Positions 19,561 to 27,919 of a stretch of DNA of 64,000 nt are shown piece after piece (the first letter of the stretch is position 1; every line of letters starts with the position of its first letter). The notes below the pieces were generated by a model, which was not told the origin of the DNA, made no database searches, and saw only the letters and a list, made by a program, of their open reading frames with translations. A program made the translations under genes and the position numbers. The stretch lies in the NCBI RefSeq assembly GCF_001422735.1, contig NZ_LMLZ01000023.1, forward strand, positions 196,587 to 260,586, given 5' to 3'. Source of the DNA: Acidovorax sp. Leaf78 (lineage in GTDB: Bacteria > Pseudomonadota > Gammaproteobacteria > Burkholderiales > Burkholderiaceae_C).

Positions 19561-20967
19561 TCAGCTCTTCTTCTTTTGCAGCTTTTTGAGGGTGGCCTCG
19601 AAGGCCTCCGCCACATCAGGCCGGGTTTCAGCGGACACGTCAAAGCGGCTGGCCAGCACGGCCGCATCGGCCTTGGCGCCCAACTGGCCAATGGCCTTGA
19701 AGACTTTTTTCATGAAAGCCGCGTCACCACCCAGGATGTGCTTTTCAAACCGCAGCAGGTCGATGATGGGGTCCACCAATTGCGGTGAATTCACCTTGCC
19801 CACCACGTCGAGCAAGCGCTTGTAGTGGTGCAGGTGGGCCTCGGAGAAGTCCCCGCGCTGGTTGAAGAACGCCAGGAACAGGTCGGCAAACACTGGCAGG
19901 GGTGCCTCTACCAGGATGCGTGCGATGGTGGCATGCTCGTGCTTCAATTTGCCCGCGTAGAACGGTTCGTACTCCGGGTAAAACGCCAGTTCGGCGTGAA
20001 AGCTCTGGGTCAGCGGGGTCACCAGGCGCTCGCCAAAGCTGCTCAGTACGGTCACCAACAGTTGGGACTCGTCCCAATAGTGCGGACGCAGGCCGTGGGT
20101 CACCATCGCATCGAACGCGCCAGGGGCCGGGTGTGCCAGCGCGCCGCGCACCATGTCCTCGTCGAAGTGCCCGTGCACGAGATTGGAGAATGCGTCACCC
20201 AACAAGGCCACATCGGTGACGGCGTAGAGCTGCGGCCAGTCCTCGGCCTCCATCAGCTGCGCGATGCGCGAGGCTTCGATGCTTGCCGCGTCGCGCACAT
20301 ACGGCTCCTCCGGCAACTCCAGCCCAAGGGCCGTTCGCTCGGCGCTCAGCTCATTGCTCACATGCATGCGCTGGTAGCGCCGGCCTGCCAGCGGCGCCAG
20401 CGTGGCCAGCGGGTTGTCATCGATCCACAGGGACTCCAAGGCCGTGCAACTTGCCAAGGGTGACAAATCAGTGATCCGGTTGCCGTCTGCATGCAGGCAC
20501 CTGAGGGCGGGATAGCTGGCGACGAAGGACAGGTCGGTGATGCGGTTGCTCGACAGGTACAGGTTCTCCAGCCTGGGCAGGTCGAGCCCTGCCGGGAAGC
20601 GGGCGAGCTTGTTGTTCCACAAGAACAGCGTCTCAACGTTCAGGCCATTGAGCGCGTCGAAGTCGTTGAAGTCGCAATGCGCAATGGTCAGCGAGTTGAG
20701 ATGAGGCAGCGCCTTGAGTGCCTGCAGATTGGTGAACTGCATGCGCTCCAGGCTCAACCGCCGAAGTCCCTGGATGTGCGCCAGGCGCGACAAATCCACC
20801 GGCTGCGCGGTGCGGTTGCTGCGCAGGTCCATGTCCAGGACGTCATCGCAGCCCGCGATCTGGTCCAGATCGGCGTCGCTGAATTTCTCGAGATGAAGTT
20901 TGTCGGCATGGTTCAGCACGCGGACAGGGCTGTAGAGACGGTCGGTCCATTTGGGCTTGGTGGTCAT
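19561..20967 (-). CDS. Leucine-rich-repeat protein
   Basis: The product is 468 residues from the ATG at 20967 (MTTKPKWTDRLYSPV). About seven repeats lie at residues 45-210 with the pattern LxxLxLxxxxIxDLxxLxxxxxL (for example LRRLSLERMQFTNLQALKAL, LENLYLSSNRITDLSFVASY, LRCLHADGNRITDLSPLASC). The C-terminal half (about 240-468) is helical, ends in a lysine-rich tail (KKLQKKKS) and has no family I know. There is no signal peptide, so it is probably cytoplasmic and protein-binding. It follows the ankyrin gene in the same direction after 53 nt. Confidence 0.85.
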   Translation of the reverse strand: MTTKPKWTDRLYSPVRVLNHADKLHLEKFSDADLDQIAGCDDVLDMDLRSNRTAQPVDLSRLAHIQGLRRLSLERMQFTNLQALKALPHLNSLTIAHCDFNDFDALNGLNVETLFLWNNKLARFPAGLDLPRLENLYLSSNRITDLSFVASYPALRCLHADGNRITDLSPLASCTALESLWIDDNPLATLAPLAGRRYQRMHVSNELSAERTALGLELPEEPYVRDAASIEASRIAQLMEAEDWPQLYAVTDVALLGDAFSNLVHGHFDEDMVRGALAHPAPGAFDAMVTHGLRPHYWDESQLLVTVLSSFGERLVTPLTQSFHAELAFYPEYEPFYAGKLKHEHATIARILVEAPLPVFADLFLAFFNQRGDFSEAHLHHYKRLLDVVGKVNSPQLVDPIIDLLRFEKHILGGDAAFMKKVFKAIGQLGAKADAAVLASRFDVSAETRPDVAEAFEATLKKLQKKKS

Positions 20968-21020
20968 GGGGTCGGGTGGTGACGGTGGGAAGGTGCCGGA
21001 AGGCGAACGGGCGCTTGTGC

Positions 21021-22451
21021 TCAAGCCGAGGTGTTGAGGTAGCGGGCGCACAGCTGCCCGATGGCGTCGCACAGCACGTCGGTGGCGGGCGGCGCGCCGG
21101 GCGCCATGGGCAGATCGATGGCTTCGCGGAGCACCCAGTCGTCGCCCTCCACCTGCGAGAAGCGCACGCGCATGATCGACCAATCGAACACGTGGACGCC
21201 CATTTCCACCGCGCCGCTGCGGCTGAGGTACGACTTGGTGCGAGACAGCCGCAGGCTGCGAGAGTAGTCGTCGTACTCCAGGTACAACGTGCCTGGCGGC
21301 ACGCGCGGGTCCGCGCCCGATCCCAGCCGTGCGATCACGTCCTTGAGACAGGTGCGCAGCCACTCGGGGTACTGGCTGGGCTGCCAGTCGGTGGGTCCGT
21401 CGATGAGTGCAGGGGCACGGTCCCAGGTGGCGCGCTGGGCGACACCATCGGGCGCGGCCTTGGGCTTGGCGGGCTTTCTGGCTGGCGCCGAGGTGGTCAA
21501 CGCTGCAACGCGGGGCTCGTGGTCGGTGCCCCTGAACAAGCGCACATCGGCCGCCAAGAGCTTGCCCTGGCCTGCGAGCGCCTCGGCCAGCACGGCGGCC
21601 ACATCGAGGTTGCCGGCGCTGACGGCCAGGCGCAGCGGCGTGCGGCCGCGCGCGTTGGCGGCGGCCGGGTCCAGGCCCCAATCGAGCAGTTGGCGCGTGC
21701 TGGCGACAGGGTCGCCCATCCGATGCCAGGTGGTCGAGAACCCCGCGCGGCTGCGGGCCAGGCCGTCCACGTCGCCTGCGGCGTACATCAGCGCATTGGA
21801 CCCATCGGGGTTGGTGGCCTGCACATCGGCGCCCCGGTCCTTCAACCACCGCAGCAGCGGCACGCTGCCGATGTACGCCGCCATCAGGAACGGCCGGTAC
21901 ATCGCACGGTGCTCCAGTACCTCCATGTCGGCGCCTGCCTGCAGCAGCATGTCGACGGCTTGGAAAACCGCATCGGCATGGCCTGGAGACGCATCCTCGC
22001 GGAACGCCATGTCGAAAACCTCACCCCGCATCTCGCGCAGGCCCAAGGCAATACACAGCGCGGGGTCCTTGGTCTGGCGCGGGTCGCCGCCTGCGGCCAA
22101 CACGAGGCCCAGTCTCTCCAGGGCACGCTCCTGGAAATAGGTGGCGAACTGCCGGCAGCAAACAGCCAGCGGCGTGGAATTGCGGTTCTTGCGCTTGTTG
22201 GGATCCGCCCCACGCTCCAGCATCAAGCGCAGCAGGGCGAGTTGGGCGTCCACGCGCCGGGCGGCACAGGCGGCGTCCGGGCCATCGGAGTACACCCAGT
22301 GGGCCTCGCAGACCCATTGCACGGCGGCATAGTGGGACACGCTGATGCGGTCCGGGTGCACGCCCGCACGGACCAGGCGATCGAGTTCGGCAACGATGGC
22401 ATCGAAGCCGATGTCATAGTCCAGGGTGACAGAGGAGGAGGAAGTGGCCAT
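21021..22451 (-). CDS. Ankyrin-repeat protein
   Basis: The product is 476 residues. Ankyrin-type units are visible at about residues 70-290 (LALLRLMLERGADPNKRKNRNSTPLAVCCRQFA, AVDMLLQAGADMEVLEHRAMYRPFLMAAYIGSVPLLRWLKDRGADVQATNPDGSNALMYAAG, TRQLLDWGLDPAAANARGRTPLRLAVSAGNLDVAAVL). The C-terminal 150 residues form a separate domain I cannot name (LYLEYDDYSRSLRLSRTKSYLSRSGAVEMGVHVFDWSIMRVRF). No signal peptide. The start lies in a 10-bp tandem repeat and lacks a visible Shine-Dalgarno. It neighbours an LRR gene, both being protein-interaction scaffolds. Confidence 0.85.
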   Translation of the reverse strand: MATSSSSVTLDYDIGFDAIVAELDRLVRAGVHPDRISVSHYAAVQWVCEAHWVYSDGPDAACAARRVDAQLALLRLMLERGADPNKRKNRNSTPLAVCCRQFATYFQERALERLGLVLAAGGDPRQTKDPALCIALGLREMRGEVFDMAFREDASPGHADAVFQAVDMLLQAGADMEVLEHRAMYRPFLMAAYIGSVPLLRWLKDRGADVQATNPDGSNALMYAAGDVDGLARSRAGFSTTWHRMGDPVASTRQLLDWGLDPAAANARGRTPLRLAVSAGNLDVAAVLAEALAGQGKLLAADVRLFRGTDHEPRVAALTTSAPARKPAKPKAAPDGVAQRATWDRAPALIDGPTDWQPSQYPEWLRTCLKDVIARLGSGADPRVPPGTLYLEYDDYSRSLRLSRTKSYLSRSGAVEMGVHVFDWSIMRVRFSQVEGDDWVLREAIDLPMAPGAPPATDVLCDAIGQLCARYLNTSA

Positions 22452-22512: not shown

Positions 22513-24711
22513 TCAGGCCTTGGACATCACCGCCAGCTCCTGGTGCAGCAGCAACTCCAGCTCGGCGGATTCGAACTGGTCTTGCAGCAGTGGGATGGCG
22601 AAGCGGTACTCGGCGTCGTGCTTGCGCAGCACATAGGCCAGCTGCAGGCGGGCCAGCGACTGGCGCAGGGCCTGGGCGTCGGCCAGGACGCCGTGGCCTT
22701 GCAGCAGCTGGGCCAGGGCGACCAGGCTGCTGTGCCCGGCCTGGGCGGTGTGGTAAACCACCACGCGGTCCAGGCGGCAGGCGGCCTCGTCGTGGCTCAG
22801 TCGCCCCCAGCCAGCCAGGGCGTCCTGCACCGGCTGCGAGGCCAGGGCCTGCGCGAGGTGGTGCGCCTCGATGGCGCGCTCGCTGGGTTGCAGCGCCTCC
22901 AGGCATTCCTGGCACAGGATGGCGACCAGGTTGGCACGCTGGCCGCTGGCGTCCACCAGCTTTTCCACCAGCGTGTCGCTCGCAAAACCCAGGCGCAGGC
23001 GGCGCAAGGGCTCGGTGGCGAGGTCGCGGCAGGCGGCGCGCTCCAGCCCACCGATGGCCAGCACCTCGCCGAAGTTGCGCAGCGGGCTTTGGTAGTCGAG
23101 CACGGCGGTGGCGTACAGGTCCCAGAAGCCCGCGAGCATGAACCAGCAGCGCCCTTCTTCGCTCAGCGCCCGCAGGGTGGACAGCTGCGGGTAGCCGTTG
23201 TGCGACTCGTCGCGAAAGAACAGGTCAGCCTCGTCGATCAGCAGGTAAAGACGCTTGCCCTGGTACTGCGCCTGCAGGTGGTCCACGATGGCTTCGAGCG
23301 GTGTGTCGGCCGGCAGGCCGAACTGCAGCGCCATGCGCGGCGCCAGGCGGTGGTCACGCAGCGACACGTAGTGGCACACGGTGTGCGGGTGGCCCTGCAG
23401 GCGGCGCTGCACGGCCTTGAGCAGGCTGCTCTTGCCCAGCTGGCGGCCGCCCACCACCAGGTAGTTGGCGGGCTCGCGGTTGATCACGCGGGCCAGCAGC
23501 TGGGCCCGGCCGAAGAACGAGCCTTCGCGTGTGATGCCGCCCCGCGTCTGGTATGGCGAGATGCGCGTGATGCGCAGCTGGGCCGCCAGCAGGCGCAGCA
23601 GCACCTGCAGGGCCTCGCCGCCCACCAGCCATTCGGTCTGACTGGCGCTGTCCACCATCACATGCAGGTTGGCGTGGTCGGCCGCGTGCGCCTGCAGCAG
23701 GGGCATGGGGGAGTCAGCGCTGTGCGCGCTGAGCACCAGCAGCACGTCGCTGCCCGTCTGCGCGGCACGCAACTGGCGCAGCACGGTGGCCTCGTCCACG
23801 CCGGGCGTGGGCACGAAGACCAGACAGCGGTCCAGCGACACGGGCAGGTCGGGCGGAAACTGCCACTCGAACACCGGCCCCAGCAGCGCCCAGTCGCTGC
23901 TGGGCTGGCTGCGGGCGGACACGCGCTCGGCCAGCGCACGGACCAGGCCCTCTGCCCGTGCGTTCGCCGCGTCGGGCGGGCCGGGCTGCGCGCACTGCAC
24001 CGCACGGCGCCAGTCCACCATGCGGATGTCGGCCGCGAGCAGCGTGGCCTGGCGCCGGCCCGTCCAGCCCAGCAGGCGGTCGAGCCGGGGCAGCCGCGCC
24101 AGCGGCGTGCGGCGCAGGCGTGCGGGCTGCAGCTGCGCGGGCCCGAGCAGCGGGTGCCGCGCCACCCAGACCACGGCGCCGGCCAGGAAGATGCCGGCGC
24201 ACCAGTAGATGAGCTGGCGCAGGCCCGCGAACGGGTCGCGCTCGGACGCCGGCACGGGCGTGAAGTCGTCCCCCTGCCCTTCCAGGCAGTTGATGGGCAG
24301 GTAGCCGCTGGGGATGGGTGGGCGCCCGGGCCGGCAGCTCCAGGTGGTGGTGCCGGGCTTGAGTTGCACGACCACCTGGGTGCCTGCGAGCTTGCCCAGC
24401 TCGGGGTTGGCGGCAATGTCGGCCTGCAGCACGTAGGGCCGGGGCGACGTGACGCGCAACTGCGGGTTGCCGATGGGGGGCGCGTATTTCTGGATGTCCT
24501 GCGGCCACGCATCGAGCTCGTTGTGGGCCTGCATCAGGGCCACGCGCCACTGCACCAGTTCGCCCCAGACGATGCCTGCGTTCTCGGCGCCCAGCACCGA
24601 GCCGCGCGTGACCGGATTGAGCTTGGGCGTGAGCAGCGCGCTGCCCACGAACAGGGTGATGGCTGCGACGACCACCGCGCGCACCAGCGCCTTGGACAGC
24701 AGCGGGCTCAT
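22513..24711 (-). CDS. Membrane-anchored P-loop NTPase with a pilin-like extracytoplasmic domain
   Basis: The product is 732 residues from the ATG at 24711. Residues 8-28 and about 166-186 are transmembrane. Between them is an outside domain whose end (TQVVVQLKPGTTTWSCRPGRPPIPSGYLPINC, residues 111-142) closely resembles the C-terminal end of type IV pilins: a VxWxC strand, then a Y-L-P-x-x-C disulfide loop. The cytoplasmic part holds a STAND/AAA-like NTPase with Walker A GGRQLGKSS (Lys427) and Walker B LYLLIDEAD, preceded by FFGRAQLLARV, and a winged-helix-like C-terminus. Its ATGA start overlaps the stop of the XRE-ATPase gene, so the two are translationally coupled. Role unknown; signalling or defence is plausible. 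Confidence 0.75.
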   Translation of the reverse strand: MSPLLSKALVRAVVVAAITLFVGSALLTPKLNPVTRGSVLGAENAGIVWGELVQWRVALMQAHNELDAWPQDIQKYAPPIGNPQLRVTSPRPYVLQADIAANPELGKLAGTQVVVQLKPGTTTWSCRPGRPPIPSGYLPINCLEGQGDDFTPVPASERDPFAGLRQLIYWCAGIFLAGAVVWVARHPLLGPAQLQPARLRRTPLARLPRLDRLLGWTGRRQATLLAADIRMVDWRRAVQCAQPGPPDAANARAEGLVRALAERVSARSQPSSDWALLGPVFEWQFPPDLPVSLDRCLVFVPTPGVDEATVLRQLRAAQTGSDVLLVLSAHSADSPMPLLQAHAADHANLHVMVDSASQTEWLVGGEALQVLLRLLAAQLRITRISPYQTRGGITREGSFFGRAQLLARVINREPANYLVVGGRQLGKSSLLKAVQRRLQGHPHTVCHYVSLRDHRLAPRMALQFGLPADTPLEAIVDHLQAQYQGKRLYLLIDEADLFFRDESHNGYPQLSTLRALSEEGRCWFMLAGFWDLYATAVLDYQSPLRNFGEVLAIGGLERAACRDLATEPLRRLRLGFASDTLVEKLVDASGQRANLVAILCQECLEALQPSERAIEAHHLAQALASQPVQDALAGWGRLSHDEAACRLDRVVVYHTAQAGHSSLVALAQLLQGHGVLADAQALRQSLARLQLAYVLRKHDAEYRFAIPLLQDQFESAELELLLHQELAVMSKA

Positions 24712-25934
24712 GCAGCGCCGGACGCGGATTCCACGACCATCAGGCCCGCCTCGCGGATGGCCGGGCTGCGCCAGTGCAGCCGCGCGGCATCGCCCGTGCC
24801 CCGCACATGGATGAGGTTGCCCCAGAACAGGCGGCGCAGTTCGTCGTCCTGCAGGTACGGGCGCGCGCGGCCCAGTTCGTCGGCCTGCAGCAGCTGGGCC
24901 AGGCGCTGGCGCGTGGCAGGGGCCTGTGCCAGCGGCAGCAGGGTCTGCCACAGGCGCGGGCTGCCGGCCAGGTGGCTGCGCAAGGCGGCAGAGCGGGCCT
25001 GCGCCTCATCCACGCCGTGGTCCACCAGCCATTGCAGGCCTTCTTCGAACAGCGCGGGGTGGCCGCCGCTCACGTCCTGCAAGGCCGCCAGCACGGACTG
25101 CGGCCAGGCCTGGTCGGGCCAGCGGTGGCGGGCCAGCAGCGTGAGGTCTTCGAGCGACGGGTCGGGCCAATGGTGGACCTGCGCGATGTTGAGCAGCGAC
25201 AGGTCGCCGCTGCGGTACTTGAGGTCAGCCAGTGCCTCGCCGCCGCACAGCAGCAGGTGCAGGCGGCCGCTGTGCATCTCGCTCAGGCTGCGCAGGATGC
25301 CCGCCAGGGTCTCGCGCAGTGCGGGCGTGCCCTGCTCGAACCGGCTGACCAGGCAGAACAGGCGCTCGCCAGCGACCAGCCGGCGCTCCAGGGCGGATTC
25401 GAATTCATAGTCGGTGGCCACATCGCCCAGACCGCACTGGCGGCCGATGGCGGCAAAGTATTCGGCCGGCACGGTGCTCACGCTGTAGGGCGGCTGGATG
25501 TGCAGCACCGCGCCATCGCCGTACTGCGCCTTGGCGCGCTGCAGCAGCTCTTGCCGGAACGGCGGCTGGCCCCAGTGTGCGGGCGACAGCAGCAGTGCGA
25601 TGGCATAGGGCACGGCCTGCGCCAGCTGCGCGAACAGCCGGTCTTGGAAGGCGGCAAACGGCTGCGCGGCGCCGGCCGGCCCGGCCTGCAGCGGAAACTC
25701 GGGCTGCAAGCCCGCCGCGCTGAGCAGGCGGTTGGCCTCGGCCTCGGTCAGGCGCAGGTAGCGGGTGCAGGCCACCACCTTGTCGCGCGAGCGCGGGTTG
25801 GGTGCGGACAGGCCGTTGCGCCAGTTGTTGACCGCCTCGCGGCTCAGGCCGATCTCGGTGGCGACGCCGGAGGCGCTGGCGCGAATGCGCCGCATGTAGA
25901 GCGACAAAAGCTCAGCGAAGGAATCTTGGGCCAT
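24708..25934 (-). CDS. XRE-type HTH protein with degenerate STAND-like ATPase domain
   Basis: The product is 408 residues. Residues 8-60 are a helix-turn-helix (MRRIRASASGVATEIGLSREAVNNWRNGLSAPNPRSRDKVV). The rest follows the order of a STAND/AAA ATPase, but the P-loop position (ALLLSPAHWGQPPFRQELL) lacks GKS/T and the Walker B position reads LFCLVSRFEQG instead of the acidic DE. Sensor-like LHLLLCGGEAL and the STAND-typical SGGHPALFEEGLQWL are kept. It therefore probably binds DNA and pairs with the intact NTPase encoded next, whose start overlaps this stop by 4 nt. Autoregulation is possible. Confidence 0.7.
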   Translation of the reverse strand: MAQDSFAELLSLYMRRIRASASGVATEIGLSREAVNNWRNGLSAPNPRSRDKVVACTRYLRLTEAEANRLLSAAGLQPEFPLQAGPAGAAQPFAAFQDRLFAQLAQAVPYAIALLLSPAHWGQPPFRQELLQRAKAQYGDGAVLHIQPPYSVSTVPAEYFAAIGRQCGLGDVATDYEFESALERRLVAGERLFCLVSRFEQGTPALRETLAGILRSLSEMHSGRLHLLLCGGEALADLKYRSGDLSLLNIAQVHHWPDPSLEDLTLLARHRWPDQAWPQSVLAALQDVSGGHPALFEEGLQWLVDHGVDEAQARSAALRSHLAGSPRLWQTLLPLAQAPATRQRLAQLLQADELGRARPYLQDDELRRLFWGNLIHVRGTGDAARLHWRSPAIREAGLMVVESASGAA

Positions 25935-26083: not shown

Positions 26084-26590
26084 TCACAGCAGCCGCTGCA
26101 CCATGGGCCAGGCCTTGTGGCAGCCCAGGCCGCAGGCCACCAGCACCGGGCTGTACAGCGCCAGCGCGCCCACCACGGTCATCAGCCAGCCTGGCTCGTC
26201 GTCATCTTCGTCACCGCCAGCGGCGTCGAACGGCTGCTTCTTGGCTTGCGGATTTTCTTCCGCGCCCTCCCCCTTCGTCTTCGCCTTGTCGGCCTTTTTC
26301 TTCTCTGCATCCGCGGGGCTGTCTCCGGTGATCTCTTGCACCAGCATCACCAGCACGACGGCCAGCGACGCGCCCAGGACAGCCAGGTAGCCGTACTGCC
26401 ATCCGGCGCGCGGCAGGGGGTAGAAGTACCCGGCCAGCACCACGGCGGGCAGCAGGAAGAACGCGTGCATCAGCCCGCGGTACCAGTGGATGCCGTCTTC
26501 GTTCTTCTCCAGCGCGCCCATGACCAGCCGGTAGGTGATGGCACCCAGCACGAAGATCAGCCCGCCCCACCATTCGATGTTTGTCAGCAT
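26084..26590 (-). CDS. Four-helix membrane protein with charged linker, unknown function
   Basis: The product is 168 residues. Hydrophobic segments lie at about 8-26 (WGGLIFVLGAITYRLVMGA), 42-62, 66-88 and 138-160, and a highly charged stretch (AEKKKADKAKTKGEGAEENPQAKK...GGDEDDDEPG) at about 92-135 lies between helices 3 and 4. I recognise no family. It sits 34 nt after the stop of the larger membrane protein at 26625-27572 and is probably cotranscribed with it. Confidence 0.65.
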   Translation of the reverse strand: MLTNIEWWGGLIFVLGAITYRLVMGALEKNEDGIHWYRGLMHAFFLLPAVVLAGYFYPLPRAGWQYGYLAVLGASLAVVLVMLVQEITGDSPADAEKKKADKAKTKGEGAEENPQAKKQPFDAAGGDEDDDEPGWLMTVVGALALYSPVLVACGLGCHKAWPMVQRLL

Positions 26591-26624: not shown

Positions 26625-27572
26625 TCAGTGGCCGGCCTGGGGGGCCTTTGGGGTGTTGGCGGCATCGTCGGCGTCGTCGCCAGCGGGCGCTTCGGCCAAT
26701 TGCGCTTCACCGTCGTCATTGCCACCTCCATCCCCATCTCCATCACCACCCTCCGCATCGCTGTCATCGTCATCCCCATGGATGTCCTTGTATTCGCTCA
26801 GCATGTAGTACAGCGGCAGCACGATGGCGAGCACCAGCCCCAAGCCCAGCCAGAGCCACAAGCCCTTGAACAGCAGCACGGTGACTACCGTGAAGGCGAT
26901 GGCCTGCAGCAGGCCCTTGAACCCCGCGCGCAACAACAGCACGGCGATGAACCCCTGCACGGGCGACTTGCCGCTCTTGCCCATGGCGCGGGCCATGTCG
27001 ATGAAGGCCTGCGCGGCCTCTTGCGCTTCTTGCTTGCGTTCGGCCTCCTGCTGGCGCAGCTTGCTGACGCTGACGGGTTTGGCCGGGTCCTTGGAGTGGC
27101 AGTATTCGTCTTCGCTGCTGTCTTCAGCGTTGCCATCGCTCGCACTGTCGCGTTCCACCGCGGGCTCCACCACCGCGCGCCATTGCGGGTAGGCCGCGAA
27201 GAACGCCTTGCGCGACACCCACTGGCCTTGGTCGAAGTGCATGCGCTCGGTCTCGCCCACCTGGTCGTAGAACACCTCCAGCACTGCCGCTTGCAGACCA
27301 TGGGCGAACAAAGTTTCCAGGGCGCGCAGGGGCAGGTCATCGTGGGTGCCGGTGTCAAAGCGCAGCAGCAGGTGGGTGCGCTCGGCAGACACTTGCTGGT
27401 TGAACCATTGCGCATCCCACAGCGCGCCCAGGTCCACGCCGCCCAGCTTGTCGGCCCAGCGCTCGGCCTGCTCGGTGTTGTCGGCCACCAGGTACTGGTA
27501 GACCAGCTGAAAGGTCTTGAGCTTGATCGGGTCTTCGAAGAACAGGTGCAGGGTATGGGCGTTTTGCGACAT
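26625..27572 (-). CDS. Membrane protein with helical N-terminal domain and acidic tail, unknown function
   Basis: The product is 315 residues from the ATG at 27572 (MSQNAHTLHLFFEDPIKLKTF). A soluble N-terminal domain of about 135 residues is followed by a charged coiled-coil (KLRQQEAERKQEAQEAAQAF), two or three transmembrane helices (about 205-265: GFIAVLLLRAGFKGLLQAIAFTVVTVLLFKGLWLWLGLGLVLAIVLPLYYML) and an extremely acidic, glycine-rich tail (DDDDSDAEGGDGDGDGGG). I do not recognise the family. It is the first gene of the minus-strand run that continues through the NTPase pair. Confidence 0.65.
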   Translation of the reverse strand: MSQNAHTLHLFFEDPIKLKTFQLVYQYLVADNTEQAERWADKLGGVDLGALWDAQWFNQQVSAERTHLLLRFDTGTHDDLPLRALETLFAHGLQAAVLEVFYDQVGETERMHFDQGQWVSRKAFFAAYPQWRAVVEPAVERDSASDGNAEDSSEDEYCHSKDPAKPVSVSKLRQQEAERKQEAQEAAQAFIDMARAMGKSGKSPVQGFIAVLLLRAGFKGLLQAIAFTVVTVLLFKGLWLWLGLGLVLAIVLPLYYMLSEYKDIHGDDDDSDAEGGDGDGDGGGNDDGEAQLAEAPAGDDADDAANTPKAPQAGH

Positions 27573-27919
27573 GGCTCGGCGGTAGAGGCGGTAGAAAAGG
27601 GGCTCGCGTTGGAATGCACGAATTGTTACCAACTGCGCGATGTGGCGCCACCTCCACCTTGTCCATGGCGCTTGCAAACCACTTGACGCAGTGTCAACCG
27701 CTGCGATTTCGCCTATGACAATGCAAACTCTGGGAGTCCCGTCTGTTACCCCGCTGGACGCATTCGGCCTTTGTAAGCGAAAGCTTCATGCATACTCGCT
27801 AGCTGCCTGTAGCTGCTGCCAGCCCCCGTTCGACATCACCTTGCGGGCCAATTCAGACCACGCCTGCGCGAGCCAAGCGTAAGGCCGGCACCACCACAAG
27901 ACACTGAGGGAGATTCACC
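27573..27919. other. Divergent intergenic region
   Basis: This 347-bp region separates the membrane-protein gene from the PhnD-like gene. The only structure I note is TTGAC-N5-GTCAA at 27683-27697, a possible operator or -35 context. No gene is supported. Confidence 0.4.

Follow-up and report, generated by a model that had tools for sequence, protein, structure and literature searches.

A two-gene system at the locus

The stretch of DNA analysed here (the window) comprises 64,000 nucleotides (nt) of Acidovorax sp. Leaf78, positions 196,587-260,586 of contig NZ_LMLZ01000023.1, and coordinates below are those of the window. On its minus strand lie two open reading frames (ORFs), called here gene A and gene B, which overlap by ATGA and have the boundaries that an earlier note on this sequence had given. 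They belong to a putative operon D-C-A-B, of which gene D is the first. A and B are likely to constitute a membrane-spanning two-protein STAND (NLR-like) switch, in which a pilin-head sensor on B would activate A at an operator. The features of the two genes, including the transmembrane (TM) helices, are:

22513..24711, minus strand: gene B, 732 aa, in the order TM helix 1, pilin-head ectodomain, TM helix 2, linker, STAND-type ATPase
24628..24690, minus strand: B TM helix 1 (aa 8-28), from an AlphaFold model
24274..24627, minus strand: B periplasmic type IVa pilin-head domain (aa 29-146), from Pfam, profile comparison and model
24334..24336, minus strand: B Cys126 of the pilin D-region
24286..24288, minus strand: B Cys142 of the pilin D-region
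24157..24228, minus strand: B TM helix 2 (about aa 162-185), from the model
22516..23571, minus strand: B STAND-type ATPase (aa 381-732), with the codon of the Walker Lys427 at 23431-23433
24708..25934, minus strand: gene A, 408 aa, an XRE-like HTH and an inactive STAND/NLR-like module
25737..25919, minus strand: A HTH region (aa 6-66)
24711..25673, minus strand: A inactive STAND module (aa 88-408), by homology to the B module and by its NLR/STAND fold

Protein searches, with 8000 candidates scored for each protein, gave 259 relatives for B and 274 for A at E <= 0.001 (best 120 listed). A scan of the genome collection yielded 73 loci (numbered L031-L103), whose hosts are Acidovorax, Giesbergeria, Hydrogenophaga, Delftia, Undibacterium, Massilia, Pseudomonas, Lysobacteraceae, Tahibacter and more distant groups. 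Residue conservation was scored in 67 B sequences, namely the window and 66 genome loci (L085, which is truncated, and the relatives L098-L103 were omitted), and in 51 homologues of A. The presence of the system was followed in a genus sample of 47 genomes and a phylum sample of 398. Gene A lies immediately upstream of B in 65 of the 67 pilin-type loci, with a gap of -22 to +14; in the other two, L036 and L085, B stands at the contig start. Wherever a pilin-type locus includes DNA upstream, the two genes, whose linkage the earlier note had asked to see checked, are never separated.

The pilin-head ectodomain of B

The ectodomain of B was read in the earlier note as a pilin-like segment held between two TM helices, and both the family profile and the model bear this out. 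The Pfam family Pilin (PF00114) matches 13 of 61 B ectodomains, any other family matching at most one, and of six full-length homologues of B that were scanned, three pass its gathering cut-off. When compared with a profile of 31 PilA heads, the ectodomain profile gives a probability of 93.9 and an E of 1.6e-7 over 103 columns, against an E of 0.25 for an unrelated control. In the AlphaFold model (predicted local distance difference test 87.9, predicted template modelling score 0.69), the fold check set beforehand as a possible refutation came out pilin-like, rows 1-28 of the structure match being type IV pilins, some of them fusions; with TM helix 1 included the model superposes on entire membrane-anchored pilins (1oqw, 2hi2). 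The ectodomain of the window's own B has no match when searched alone in Pfam, so that the evidence for a pilin consists of the family profile and the model. On these grounds the ectodomain is assigned a predicted type IVa pilin-head fold, a helix with an antiparallel sheet.

Cys126, Cys142, the Walker Lys427, Asp493 and Glu494 are each invariant (67/67), and the cysteine pair which closes the D-region of pilins is thus present in B, with a predicted disulfide. A chance resemblance to a pilin motif is ruled out by the invariant residues, the Pfam scan, the profile comparison and the structure match. Neither a prepilin-peptidase motif nor a Glu within aa 11-30 (TM helix 1) was found in any of the 67 sequences, and without a prepilin motif B is ruled out as a working pilin or minor pilin. 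As judged from these sequences, B carries a non-polymerising pilin head and is not a real filament subunit. The 30 residues from aa 186 hold six Lys or Arg, which fits a cytoplasmic C-terminus, and this C-terminal part is the intact P-loop ATPase recognised earlier (Pfam AAA_22, E 2.7e-8). Nonsynonymous change is about threefold faster in the ectodomain than in the ATPase (median distance 0.64 vs 0.22; Nei-Gojobori, 1,425 pairs); the distances are large and no claim of positive selection is made.

Other databases gave little. A search of the PDB by sequence found nothing for B at E 1 and a single weak match for A (E 0.84), NCBIfam gave no match for either protein, and PHROGs gave weak matches alone. 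A further pilin-domain protein is encoded in the same genome (L109:598-1743; G000:C20:978247-978456): it is a membrane protein of 381 aa ending in a pilin head (27.1 bits, over the Pfam cut-off), with a zinc-ribbon-like start and an RDD-like middle by eye, and is the second apparently non-filament pilin-domain protein of this genome.

The HTH and inactive STAND module of A

The HTH region of A holds 29 positions invariant among the 51 homologues, including S31 R32 E33 V35 N36 N37 W38 R39. The rest of the protein had been noted earlier as an ATPase-like domain lacking the Walker lysine. All 51 homologues lack the Walker A and the Walker B consensus, and AxWGQPPxR and VSRFEQG occupy those places. 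Structure comparison gives this module a NOD-like (NLR/STAND) fold. Comparison of the A and B profiles was at first weak (probability 4.5, E 0.009) and became convincing once distant relatives were added, and an invariant Arg is seen in the alignments of both proteins. By sequence, then, the module of A is homologous to the STAND module of B and is predicted to be nucleotide-blind. Of the features of the STAND/NLR family, fold or homology is found in both proteins and the Walker motifs in B alone.

A putative operator before the operon

The alignment of the 260 bp upstream of gene D from 32 loci revealed a palindrome followed by a third half-site. In the window the promoter region and the genes behind it are:

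27683..27697, minus strand: operator palindrome TTGACACTGCGTCAA, 111 bp before gene D
27659..27665, minus strand: third operator half-site TGGACAA, from the promoter alignment
27622..27627, minus strand: AACAAT element, candidate -10, 31 nt past the third half-site
26625..27572, minus strand: gene D, 315 aa from a conserved ATG (MSQN), with an N-terminal domain and two TM segments
26084..26590, minus strand: gene C, 168 aa, with four hydropathy-predicted TM segments

The consensus is TTGAC-N5-GTCAA, 18-20 nt and (T/G)GACAA, to which Acidovorax and near relatives add 31 nt and AACAAT. Among 37 promoters (32 upstream of D, four of a gene for a DUF4124-like protein, and the window), 34 have both the palindrome and the third half-site, at a spacing of 18-20 nt in 33 and 29 in one; AACAAT follows 31 nt on in all 22 promoters having it, all of Acidovorax and near relatives. 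The palindrome occurs at the operon promoter in beta- and gammaproteobacteria, often with the third half-site. The strict TTGAC-N5-GTCAA occurs 33 times in the 1,441,231 bp of L031-L103 (none of them in L098-L103), and 32 of these sites are upstream of A, mostly just before the first gene of the operon, whichever gene that is. In Comamonadaceae and some Pseudomonas this first gene is D, in Tahibacter, Massilia and relatives it is A itself, in Stenotrophomonas it encodes a DUF3592 protein and in Lysobacter another membrane protein. In its TKGACRNNNYGTCMA form a site is found within 2.6 kb before A in 47 of 65 loci. The density of this form is 48 sites in 165,316 bp upstream of A vs 1 in 161,224 bp downstream of B, with none for the backwards pattern upstream, although the form was refined on the same loci in which it was then counted, and their relatedness means that they are not independent. 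Of the 27 genus genomes with A-B, 22 have the three-part pattern, always at the operon promoter; it occurs in 2 of the 20 without A-B, and the backwards control occurs once in the 47 genomes.

This association suggests that A may bind the TTGAC-N5-GTCAA operator. Because the half-sites lie upstream of the putative -10 and not over it, A most likely activates D-C-A-B. Repression is a frequent role of XRE proteins, autoregulation is widespread, and A might accordingly rest on the operator as a repressor until B, on receiving its signal, sequesters it at the membrane. The distance of 31 nt between the half-sites and the putative -10, with no overlap, counts against this, however, and we find repression by A somewhat doubtful.

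Exchange of probable sensor and output modules in distant relatives

The strongest argument for the pilin head as the probable sensor and the HTH as the probable output comes from relatives in which modules are exchanged at both ends. By Pfam, the A core bears CHAT and TIR domains in L098 (Thiothrix), TIR in L099 (Thiothrix) and CHAT in L100 (Thiolinea), with no HTH, and WD40 repeats precede the B core in L098, L101 (Beggiatoa, starting at a contig edge) and L102 (a metagenome-assembled genome (MAG) of Rhodospirillales). The WD40 repeats are accompanied by a CARDB-like stretch, named by eye. The matches listed for a search from the Beggiatoa B include many WD40 forms, one NHL form and some without named domains. 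Sensor and output modules thus appear to be exchanged on a constant A/B core, and these swaps, together with the conserved operator, support the earlier proposal of an outside sensor coupled to a paired NTPase and DNA-binding protein. Since the distant relatives pair the same cores with TIR and CHAT outputs, the ancestral role was probably of the conflict or immune type. In the two Thiothrix genomes the TIR/CHAT-type pair seemingly lies between hypD-like and hypE-like genes, as named by eye.

Distribution and companion genes

In the genus sample A is present in 27 of the 47 genomes and full-length B in those same 27; G002 and G003 have short matches alone. The match in G003 (G003:C570:15906-16037) covers 43 residues of the B C-terminus with an internal stop and is a possible remnant of a lost system. 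The B core was found in 8 of the 398 genomes of the phylum sample, and three IMG/VR contigs (L104, L105, L106) carry B relatives of 63-76% identity. Gene D accompanies A-B in 26 of the 27 genus genomes, G028 being the sole one without it, and is absent from all 20 genomes lacking the pair. Homologues of gene C are found in 28 loci, one of them of Pseudomonas.

The co-inherited TM protein D, the NLR-like module of A, the conflict-type relatives and the fast-evolving pilin head would all suit an integrated-decoy immune receptor, whose pilin head would bait pilus-binding phages or pilin-targeting proteins and whose operon would encode protective or abortive membrane effectors. PADLOC, however, finds nothing in A and just a weak ATPase match in B (E 0.0015). 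Such a receptor seems unlikely to us. The companions bear also on B as an envelope homeostasis sensor, in which the pilin fold would be merely a stable disulfide-bonded periplasmic domain, B would report folding, redox or membrane stress, and A would induce envelope proteins without any immune role. Several companions in the operon or regulon of different clades, though unrelated in sequence, have predicted TM or signal segments (D with two, C with four, the DUF3592 protein with two and the Lysobacter protein with three TM segments, and the DUF4124-like secreted protein), and some neighbours resemble housekeeping genes by eye. Other companions are without predicted TM segments, however, and the patchy presence in genus and phylum and the TIR and CHAT outputs of distant relatives, typical of conflict systems, do not suit such a sensor, which we hold as a tentative possibility.

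Directly after B lies one further gene:

21021..22451, minus strand: ankyrin-repeat gene, apparently optional cargo

The genes that come after B on its strand (19561-22451) encode ankyrin and LRR repeats and have homologues in just 10 and 5 loci respectively, suggesting variable cargo.

Sites away from the operon

Six off-operon matches of the three-part pattern are present in the 47 genus genomes. Four of them, in four genomes, precede the DUF4124-like gene, and the remaining two belong to genomes that lack the pair. The DUF4124-like secreted protein scores 17.2 bits, under the Pfam cut-off; no good site was found at the four that were read of seven second DUF4124-like copies. By eye, three-part sites are also found away from the operon in a Chromatiales MAG (G576), Delftia (L266) and Tahibacter (L273), and a partial one in Undibacterium (L276).

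The Chromatiales MAG (L261-L264) carries five strict palindromes, against none for the control; CTGACAA comes after four of them and CTGACAC after the fifth. They precede uncharacterised genes that are unrelated to each other and make this genome the best place for defining a wider regulon. D-like proteins among these targets were considered and dismissed, the similarity to D being marginal (hmmsearch E 0.0057 and 0.03; BLAST E 3.7e-4 over 34 residues). In the genome of strain Leaf78 a palindrome, TGGACGCATTGTCCA, lies 59 bp before a pilin-like gene (L171:2089-2103; G000:C1:670588-670602); it is lone, without further support, and probably background. A role of A as a regulator of type IV pilus genes was rejected, no three-part operator having been found at any pil gene.

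Several observations weigh against a pilin-headed switch acting on its operator. Strict palindromes number 44 in 41 genomes, of which 20 match operon sites, and the other 24 compare with 33 for the backwards control; a wide regulon is therefore unsupported and, with off-operon palindromes at background, any regulon would be small. A looser form of the palindrome occurs 28 times in the strain's own genome, vs 15 for the control. At the operon itself the exact upstream site is absent in 18 of 65 loci, 15 of which have a one-mismatch site; none is present within 2.6 kb before A in L055, L061 (which has 367 bp of upstream DNA) and L076 (site at -3.2 kb). The 31-nt rule is drawn from Acidovorax and near relatives, the exact AACAAT is absent in 12 of the 34 promoters, and the direction of regulation is deduced from spacing alone. 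The HTH of A is found in Pfam as HTH_3 at E 0.027, under the cut-off, and that of the homologue P0234 as HTH_31 (2.3e-4) and HTH_3 (6.1e-4), both also under their cut-offs. Among the distant relatives, the 6.9 kb upstream of the L102 B hold no A, the L100 B ORF shows no TM segment and no ectodomain, and the L103 A is a fragment. Finally, PilT is present in all 47 genus genomes, with the pair or without it.

The distribution of PilT counts in particular against B as a pilus-state sensor, kept in its off or on state by pilin or assembly factors of the inner membrane and reporting the pilin pool or pilus dynamics. The superposition of B on membrane-anchored pilins and the PilA-type genes of the host are in keeping with such a sensor, but the genes identified behind three-part operators are not pil genes, the lone palindrome before a pilin-like gene is probably background, and we judge such a sensor quite unlikely.

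Comparison with known systems

The earlier note knew of no described system with this combination, and this holds in part: two-gene systems of an active and an inactive STAND protein have been described as nSTAND2 (Kaur et al. 2021 eLife, PMC8195603), though the word pilin is absent from the main text of that paper. This counter-invader system, the closest known from the account given there, consists of two STAND proteins, one eroded and effector-fused, for which a hetero-multimer is proposed. Common to both is the two-gene operon with one active and one inactive STAND protein (activity being judged here by motif). The output of the inactive partner varies in the A/B family, with an HTH here and TIR or CHAT in distant relatives. 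The nSTAND2 section of that paper gives GT4 and HEPN as the commonest effectors and makes no mention of a TM sensor, a pilin head, an HTH as output or an operator; a scan of three distant A proteins showed neither GT4 nor HEPN. The Pfam matches listed for the A/B family are AAA_22, nSTAND1, AAA_35 and others, none of those listed being named nSTAND2.

The ternary iSTAND/VMAP conflict systems (PMC7159879) are described as having inactive STAND modules with swappable effectors, including HTH domains, and about 28% of one subsystem as having TM segments at the N-terminus; unlike the A-B pair they have vWA-MoxR proteins as their basis. The word pilin is missing from the main texts of PMC8195603, PMC7159879, PMC10907252 and PMC12839542, and the 'pilin domain' in the text of PMC8320348 is that of FimH. 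A literature search for nSTAND with pilin gave no match, and further topic searches of the open literature, judged mostly by title, showed no such combination.

With the STAND/NLR receptors (plant NLR resistosomes, CED-4, Apaf-1) the pair shares the NOD-like fold of A and the division into sensor, ATPase and output; unlike them it is made of two proteins, spans the membrane and has the nucleotide-binding half apart from the output half. B resembles the type IVa pilin head (PF00114; PilE/PilA) in fold, with helix and beta-sheet, and in the WxC...P...C region, and differs from an ordinary pilin in lacking the processing motif and in the second TM helix and cytoplasmic ATPase which follow the head. 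MalT-type STAND activators likewise use a STAND module to control transcription, but MalT acts as one protein, in the cytosol, and binds ATP at a site of its own. New here are the sensor and output swaps in distant relatives, the palindrome at the operon promoter and the co-occurrence of D with A-B.

Proposed mechanism and significance

In the switch that we favour, the trigger would be a change in what the pilin head contacts, be it an event involving pilin or pilus, a phage or protein directed at pili, or the disulfide or folding state of the envelope. The head would read this event at the inner membrane and the nucleotide state of B would change; the ATPase of B and the dead STAND module of A would then join as a hetero-oligomer at the membrane, and the clustered HTHs of A would engage the three half-sites and switch on D-C-A-B, along with a small number of further genes in certain genomes. 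The direct effector of the ancestral system would have been replaced here by a transcription factor. In its full form the decoy explanation, a split transmembrane NLR-like receptor with a pilin 'integrated decoy' for pilus-targeting phages or proteins, transcribing a membrane-effector operon through the three-half-site operator, is in our view improbable; if true, it would be an immune receptor in which a TIR/CHAT effector was swapped for a transcription factor.

With the two-protein switch as the preferred reading, a pilin head would serve as a receptor-like domain instead of a part of a filament, and a pilus-shaped sensor may directly control genes. An NLR-type STAND pair would be linked to the control of transcription through a defined operator, within a family which appears to exchange sensor and output on a constant core. 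The operator, the operon and the co-inherited gene D make the signal and purpose of the system open to reporter assays.

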